A stretch of 37,095 bases of DNA from contig JAJRQN010000205.1 of the NCBI GenBank assembly GCA_024280235.1, positions 1 through 37,095 on the forward strand, written 5' to 3'. The notes below the pieces were generated by a model. It was not told the origin of the DNA, did no database searches, and worked only from the letters and a program-made list of their open reading frames with translations. Position 1 is the stretch's first letter. Each line of letters opens with the position of its first letter. Of the stretch, positions 11,555-12,929 are shown piece after piece. This stretch comes from Bacteroidota bacterium. Lineage in GTDB: Bacteria > Bacteroidota > Bacteroidia > Bacteroidales > F082. The position numbers were made by a program, and so were the translations under genes.

Positions 11555-12157
11555 ATGACGATCATGGTACACCACTTTTATGAAAGTCAAAAAATTGAAA
11601 CAGGTTATTTTAGCGCTGCCGACAACTTTTACCGGCAACAGTTGGGGGCGGTAAAAACAGAGCGCTGTGATTATCACACGGAGAAAGGAAGAATTTTTCA
11701 GCGAGACGACATCGACCTGTGGCTGACGTTGGGAAGTGAAAAGATTTCGGTCAGCGAAAAAAAACGTACCCGTGATTTTAATGATCTCTACCTTGAAGTT
11801 TACAGTAAATTTCCGGACACATCCGGCTGGACTGTTCATTCCAAGGCAGACTTTTTGGCTTACTTTTTTCCGGACAGAGTATTCTGGGCCGGATTTCCAC
11901 AAATCGTTCGTTTTTGCAGGGAGAGCCTTTTTCCACAAATCTCTTCCCATTGGTTTGAGAACTTAAAATCAAACCATCTCAAAAAAAGCGCACAGAAAAA
12001 GCATACGATAAAAATCGCCGGACAGGTTTATGATGTTGTGCTCATTCAGGCTTACAACGAAAGTGATGGAAACAGTTGGTACACCATGGGTATCAGTATT
12101 CCCTTTGACATGCTAAAAGACAACCATATCAAATTCCGGATTTATCCCTTGAAATAA
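11555..12157 (+). CDS. Hypothetical protein, possibly with a nuclease-like fold
   Basis: Intact 200-aa ORF. FQRDDIDLWLTLGSEKISVSEKKRTRDFNDLYLEVYS resembles the D...(E)xK layout of PD-(D/E)XK-type proteins. An alternative ATG at 11564 is possible. Confidence 0.65.
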   Translation: MTIMVHHFYESQKIETGYFSAADNFYRQQLGAVKTERCDYHTEKGRIFQRDDIDLWLTLGSEKISVSEKKRTRDFNDLYLEVYSKFPDTSGWTVHSKADFLAYFFPDRVFWAGFPQIVRFCRESLFPQISSHWFENLKSNHLKKSAQKKHTIKIAGQVYDVVLIQAYNESDGNSWYTMGISIPFDMLKDNHIKFRIYPLK

Positions 12158-12291
12158 AATAATGTTCTTTTGGCTGTATTCTCAGCGAGTGTTGAAATCA
12201 GTGGTCATTCTGTTGTTATTCAATCGTCAACGGTTATCAGATCATGGTTTGTTCAGAATGATTGCATTTAATATTTATCTTTTCATTGCGG

Positions 12292-12492
12292 AAGGGATGG
12301 AAGCGGATAGCCCGCAGCGACACAGCGGAATGGAGGCTGGCAGAGGCATGGCGACTGCAAGAAGCCCATGGAAATGACATAGCCGACACCGCTGTGATGT
12401 GAGGACTATAAGCGAACAGCCCGGTGAGGTTTGCGTTGGCCTCCACTTCAGGCGGGTAGGCCTGAAGTGGCGTGGGGGAACCGAAGCCGCCC
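12292..12492. ncRNA. Candidate structured noncoding RNA or interspersed element (strand unresolved)
   Basis: Locally GC-rich between AT-rich flanks. Nested pairings CACAGCGG (12321-12328)/CCGCTGTG (12389-12396), GGCT (12335-12338)/AGCC (12363-12366), GCAG (12340-12343)/CTGC (12355-12358), plus a perfect 11-bp hairpin CCACTTCAGGC-gggtag-GCCTGAAGTGG (12443-12470). No convincing coding frame. Confidence 0.4.
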
Positions 12493-12566
12493 AAAATAAA
12501 CAGCCACTCCAATTCCCAATTTTATTATTTTTGTGGAATTAAATTACTAACAAAAAGCATACTGAC

Positions 12567-12929
12567 ATGGGTGTAGAACTGAAAGGCAGAATGATTAAGA
12601 AATTGCCTGTGGTAAACGGTGAGAGCCGTGCCGGAAACAAGTGGGAGAAACAGGAATTTGTGATTGAGACGGAGGAACAATATCCGAAAAAGGTGTGCAT
12701 CAGTGTGTGGGGCGACCGTGTGCGTGAGCTGGAGAAATTCCAGGAAGGCGACGTGGTGATTGCTTCGGTAAACATCGAGTCGCGCGAGTATAACGAACGC
12801 TGGTACACCGACATACGCGCCTGGCGACTGCAACGTGATGAGAGTAGCAGCCTTCCACCTCTGCCGCCGGAAGCACAAAGTGACGATTCGGCTTTGATGG
12901 ATGACGGAGCCGGCGATCTTCCGTTTTAA
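12567..12929 (+). CDS. DUF3127 domain-containing protein (OB-fold/SSB-like)
   Basis: MGVELKGRMIKKLPVVNGESRAGNKWEKQEFVIETEEQYPKKVCISVWGDRV...NIESREYNERWYTDIRAWRLQ matches DUF3127 features. Confidence 0.9.
   Translation: MGVELKGRMIKKLPVVNGESRAGNKWEKQEFVIETEEQYPKKVCISVWGDRVRELEKFQEGDVVIASVNIESREYNERWYTDIRAWRLQRDESSSLPPLPPEAQSDDSALMDDGAGDLPF

Follow-up and report, generated by a model that had tools for sequence, protein, structure and literature searches.

The GC-rich segment between positions 12287 and 12496 (+ strand) of the window, by which the whole analysed stretch of 37,095 nucleotides is meant, is one copy of a dispersed, intergenic and sharp-ended element, whose structure is maintained by compensatory changes and which, at one and the same locus, is found in some related species and missing from others. 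It is probably a REP-like repeat with a new and larger architecture, namely an interspersed DNA element that is neither coding nor autonomous and that folds as a single strand. As an interspersed element it occurs at least 34 times in this genome, and one of the two possibilities raised by the first-pass annotation, an interspersed element rather than an undescribed RNA, was thereby borne out.

Location and coding capacity

This genome's copy is matched end to end by the covariance model R1 with 149.8 bits. The first-pass annotation had set the segment at 12292-12492, which is real, but its true ends lie slightly outside, at 12287 and 12496. It is located between an upstream gene encoding a 200-amino-acid protein without a Pfam match (11555..12157, +) and a downstream gene encoding a DUF3127 protein (12567..12929, +), both of which also adjoin the site without an element in genome G011. 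The contrast in composition noticed earlier is confirmed by a GC content of 0.595 in 12300-12499 against 0.35-0.40 in the left flank, and so is the strong folding, with z = -4.76 (+ strand) and z = -3.32 (- strand) for 12285-12500 folded as RNA. The segment had also been regarded as noncoding, in agreement with the absence of any Pfam match for the overlapping reverse-strand open reading frame (12237-12512) and with insertions and deletions among the copies that do not keep any reading frame. Searches with Rfam 15 gave no match in the window at the gathering score and none for 12250-12560 even at E values up to 10 (4227 families).

Structure maintained by compensatory changes

Covariation in the proposed stems was evaluated using a structure of 43 base pairs drawn by eye on 32 copies. 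Both partners vary in 37 of these pairs, and 91.8% of cells pair, a percentage somewhat inflated by the hand-drawing, which does not explain the two-sided changes. The covariation value was 0.418, as compared to 0.139 +/- 0.008 in shuffled alignments and at most 0.106 with slid partners, and the observed value was reached by none of 500 shuffles.

The element ends pair with each other in the closing stem P1, formed by GCGG at 12288..12291 and CCGC at 12487..12490 (+), with three of four pairs changing on both sides and 98% paired in the 32 copies. Helices P2, P3 and P4, all with covariation, constitute the antiparallel pairing of two 22-nt direct-repeat units, GAGGGATNGNAGCGGAWAGCCCG-like and GAGGACTWNNAGCGGAWAGCCCG-like, represented here by unit 1, AGGGATGGAAGCGGATAGCCCG (12293..12314, +), which is near-invariant in relatives, and unit 2, GAGGACTATAAGCGAACAGCCCG (12401..12423, +). 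Between these helices lie near-invariant mismatches, namely G.A at 12300.12416 in 30 of 32 copies, A.G at 12302.12414 in 29 of 32 and G.A at 12305.12411 in all 32, with A.G at 12297.12419 swapped to G.A in three copies. The long variable stem P5 pairs 12317..12328 with 12389..12400 (+), with all 11 of its 11 pairs changing on both sides, and the stem CACAGCGG/CCGCTGTG recognized in the first reading is present exactly within it, at 12321-12328/12389-12396. Above it, the apical module (12335..12384, +) comprises P6 (12335-12342/12375-12384), P7 (12346-12352/12364-12371) and a conserved GCGAC...GAAGC loop, and is restricted to long forms, with a simple loop in the short forms of other genomes. 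The GGCT/AGCC stem proposed there turned out to be real and conserved (12335-12338/12381-12384), while the GCAG...CTGC stem did not hold, as it is not conserved and homologues instead pair CATGGC with GCCcATG (12347-12352/12364-12370). The 3' hairpin P8 (12428..12482, +), in which GGTT at 12428-12431 pairs with AACC at 12479-12482, varies in length from almost nothing to that of this copy. Its loop contains, in this copy only, an inserted 28-bp palindrome (12443..12470, +), hence the reported 11-bp hairpin CCACTTCAGGC/GCCTGAAGTGG is exact at 12443-12453/12460-12470 but peculiar to this copy, the loop being short in relatives. The 3' end carries an unpaired foot tag, CCAAAA (12491..12496, +), and in the flank profile information drops towards background just outside it.

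Copies and distribution

Using BLASTN, 18 matches were found in this genome and matches in 10 of 11 other congeneric genomes (11 of 12 counting its own), with hardly any beyond the genus. The covariance model R1, built from the 32 copies, revealed at least 34 places in this genome (150 of 266 candidates scored) and matches in 17 of 198 genomes of the order and 41 of 396 genomes of the phylum. With the broader model R2, at least 65 of 396 sampled phylum genomes contain the element at E <= 0.001 (strict filters, ten candidates scored per genome), and each of eight complete genomes contains 13-45 copies. Matches to the 22-base pattern were obtained in Mucilaginibacter, Pedobacter, Chitinophagaceae, Cytophagaceae, Flavobacteriales and Tannerellaceae, as well as in Spirochaetales and Treponema MAGs. 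Thus, the motif that the first-pass annotation had likened to intergenic sequence of Bacteroidetes genomes does recur across Bacteroidota, by pattern as well as covariance-model searches. Related shorter forms occur across Bacteroidota and in some termite-gut Spirochaetes; elsewhere in the phylum they measure 80-100 nt with a simple loop replacing the apical module, and in some Spirochaetes a single repeat unit is found.

Several additional observations concern these forms. Half elements consisting of a single unit (L221, L186, L228, L263) occur in MAGs of Spirochaetes and in one of Bacteroidetes, and may be an ancestral or a reduced form. Sister families that share the two-unit core and differ in their ends (TAGCCC...GAT; GCTGG...TAGCT) were noticed at L156-L169 and L386-L398 and coexist within the same Flavobacteriia-type genomes. 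The Spirochaetales MAG Gx481_bin132 (L195, L269, L261) exhibits very dense amplification, with several copies per 4-8 kb contig piece and element pairs that are 90-97% identical. A Chloroflexi match (L260) consisted of the 22-mer alone, lacking all other parts of the element, and was treated as chance, and carriage by phages was rejected, given two matches in 2.9 million viral contigs.

Gain and turnover of copies

In genome G011 the same gene pair (70.6% and 91.7% protein identity) is present about 100 bp apart without the element. Similarly, no element precedes the DUF3127 gene in G003 and G005, and in G004 this gene is preceded by its own diverged element; G011, G003 and G005 are all closer to G000 than G004 is. 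The flanking DNA is about 18% diverged between species, so the exact insertion junction at the empty site of G011 is unreadable, and the element may have been lost in G011 instead of gained here. Within this genome, the closest copy shares 91% identity over 138 nt and has a left flank that cannot be aligned, and in a Spirochaete MAG copies 90-97% identical lie mostly in different flanks. The ends are sharp, with the CCCAAA foot on one side only in the flank profile. No excess of target duplications was observed for lengths of 4-8, with 48, 19, 3, 1 and 0 cases against 45.8, 14.5, 3.7, 0.6 and 0.2 expected. Some copies occupy corresponding sites in two species (L022/L032, L023/L041 and L011/L020, judged by eye), and hence turnover is slow. 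Gain of copies is therefore likely and slow, with insertion not proven to the base. An autonomous version with a gene between two halves was also considered and rejected, as lone halves were found with a partner within reach almost never, and there was no consistent gene between element halves.

Genomic context

Neighbourhoods were sampled, using a simple ORF call, in eighty stretches of 20 kb that come from four complete genomes and contain 97 copies. Among these, 90 copies are intergenic, the upstream gene has the same orientation in 44 cases and the opposite in 46, the downstream gene in 42 and 48, respectively, and the surrounding gene pairs are convergent in 14 cases and divergent in 12. 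No gene family is recurrent beside the copies beyond common housekeeping or ABC-type families. An impression of replication-strand bias from positions in G570 and G453 failed the local GC skew test (p = 0.64). The lack of orientation preference, of a relation to GC skew and of a recurrent neighbour argues against terminators, leaders and co-transcribed regulators. A transcription terminator or stabiliser of mRNA 3' ends, for which a long GC-rich hairpin within intergenic DNA might speak, is highly improbable, since the hairpin is not followed by a U-run on either strand (on +, the sequence is T-rich ahead of it and A-rich behind it) and no preference is seen among convergent, divergent and tandem gene pairs. 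As a separate observation, elements adjoin ribosomal protein S1-like and pyrR-like genes in several groups (L378, L263, L243, L231), perhaps a recurrent insertion place.

Folded DNA or structured RNA

The types of base change in the helices bear on the nature of the folded strand. G.U accounts for 1.7% (A1), 1.4% (A2) and 2.1% (A3) of G.U plus Watson-Crick helix cells, with G.U:A.C ratios of 0.7, 2.5 and 0.9, respectively, as compared to 6.0% (bootstrap 4.3-7.8) and a ratio of 7.7 for RNase P RNA, a single control RNA family with a predicted rather than curated structure. This control was taken from 26 genomes of the same order with the same counting, leaving out G.U-dominant columns. In an RNA, G.U should be much better tolerated than A.C, which need not hold for a DNA fold, and hence the pattern is of the folded-DNA type. 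The conserved mismatches bring purine against purine on the + strand alone, from which we infer that it is this strand which folds as single-stranded DNA.

Two observations run against the reading as a DNA element: the RNA fold on + (z = -4.76) is stronger than the DNA fold (z = -2.39), and the replication-strand bias often seen in single-strand transposons is absent (p = 0.64). An alternative is a structured RNA, a small RNA or the RNA component of a ribonucleoprotein, transcribed from the + strand of many dispersed copies, with which the strong RNA fold, better on + than on -, the conserved purine-rich internal loops on +, the A.G/G.A swap typical of ordered non-canonical pairs and the conserved apical module are all consistent. 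Such an RNA is nevertheless unlikely, given the scarcity of G.U, roughly equal to A.C and in contrast to the RNase P RNA control, the dozens of copies per genome without orientation preference to genes or a conserved neighbour, and the lack of an Rfam family. The earlier suggestion of an undescribed RNA agrees with the absence of an Rfam match, but is not supported as to RNA, as base-pair changes are of the DNA type and orientation to genes shows no preference.

RAYT genes and Y1 transposases

This genome and genus possess RAYT genes that carry the motifs NHVH and YIHNNP and resemble subclass 2.6 as described in PMC6006769, where Bacteroidetes RAYTs (TnpA-REP, subclass 2.6 / group 5) are portrayed as flanked by 'atypical secondary structures'. 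The presence of these genes, together with a REP-like habit (intergenic, many copies, a tag at one foot), would fit an element that is the REP repeat of such a RAYT. This is improbable, however, as the local RAYT-type genes are flanked by a different 22-nt repeat of their own, GGTTCAAGCGTCCGCTTGGACC (19 RAYT-type loci inspected), and a clear element is found within 1.5 kb of only 1 of 51 Y1_Tnp loci. Furthermore, the draft genomes G152 and G221 contain elements and gave no Y1_Tnp match, and G585, with 38 element matches, has one Y1_Tnp match, IS200-like by score. Because of the repeats proper to the RAYT genes, the Y1_Tnp loci and G152/G221, the element is considered REP-like in its working and is not filed as a REP/RAYT member. 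No mobilising enzyme was found, whether among the RAYT-type and Y1_Tnp loci or among neighbouring genes.

The palindrome GGTTCAAGCGTCCGCTTGGACC occurs in many copies around RAYT-type Y1 transposase genes at L077 (G000:C122), L068, L078 and L080, and together with these genes is a separate REP system of the genus. In the flank of L002 (G000:C168), tandem copies of ACTAATGGTTCAGGCGTCCGTCTGGAT, probably a REP array, lie directly beside an element.

Proposed mode of action and significance

For a folded DNA repeat the following course can be proposed. The purine-rich + strand would fold as single-stranded DNA, for example during replication, into a closed hairpin, in which the two 22-nt units would pair around tandem G.A mismatches beside the unpaired CCCAAA foot. 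This fold may be recognised by a putative enzyme acting in trans, which would copy or move the element into intergenic DNA without target duplication. A far-reaching extension is conceivable and still doubtful. Under it, the phylum would harbour a class of mobile elements whose activity depends entirely on folding as single-stranded DNA, into a pseudo-dimer held by tandem G.A mismatches; an enzyme distinct from the known Y1 HUH transposases would spread them, and transfer into Spirochaetes would have taken place. The simplest view is that of a tolerated selfish repeat, any host benefit being hypothetical.

The element is present in many genomes of a major phylum (at least 65 of 396 at the strict filter), with dozens of copies in some, yet it has no Rfam entry. 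Core 12-mers of both strands, searched in full text, matched unrelated papers only, and keyword searches likewise revealed no account of the element. As the literature covered did not extend to bioRxiv or to most subscription papers, the element may have been described before. The covariation-backed structure is ready for single-strand DNA binding tests, and the element poses the question of which enzyme spreads it where no Y1 transposase is found. Knowledge of the element is useful for annotating intergenic DNA of Bacteroidota, and the count of G.U to A.C provides a simple discriminator between folded-DNA repeats and structured RNAs.

Comparison with known systems

MITEs, such as BrickBuilt of Porphyromonas gingivalis (PMC4596501), are likewise small, non-autonomous and interspersed in Bacteroidota. 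The present element differs from them by the lack of target-site duplication above chance and probably also of transposase-type inverted ends beyond 4-5 bp, its termini being complementary over 4-5 bp with a variable sequence that covaries and is not fixed. Integron attC sites are imperfect hairpins that are conserved in structure more than in sequence and act as a folded single strand. The element shares the imperfect hairpin and the conservation of structure over sequence; in contrast to attC, it is not in cassette arrays, and the paired R boxes RYYYAAC and GTTRRRY occur together in 0 of 255 copies. Multi-copy structured RNAs of Rfam, HEARO and others, are comparable in being about 200 nt long, highly structured and mobile-looking, from which the element is set apart by the lack of a match to any of 4227 families at E 10 and by pair changes of the DNA type.

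With REP/BIME sequences and their RAYTs (PMC6006769, PMC3733652, PMC8266576), the element has in common many intergenic hairpin-forming copies, an asymmetric tag at one foot, the lack of coding capacity and, as we infer for this element, working via a folded single strand. However, it measures 80-210 nt as compared to 20-40 nt for REP, and its tag is CCCAAA instead of GTAG or CGTC, which are found at a foot in only 7 and 5 of 255 copies, respectively. Unlike REP, it does not lie beside RAYT genes, and its two units pair as a pseudo-dimer with tandem G.A mismatches, in a structure found across the phylum.
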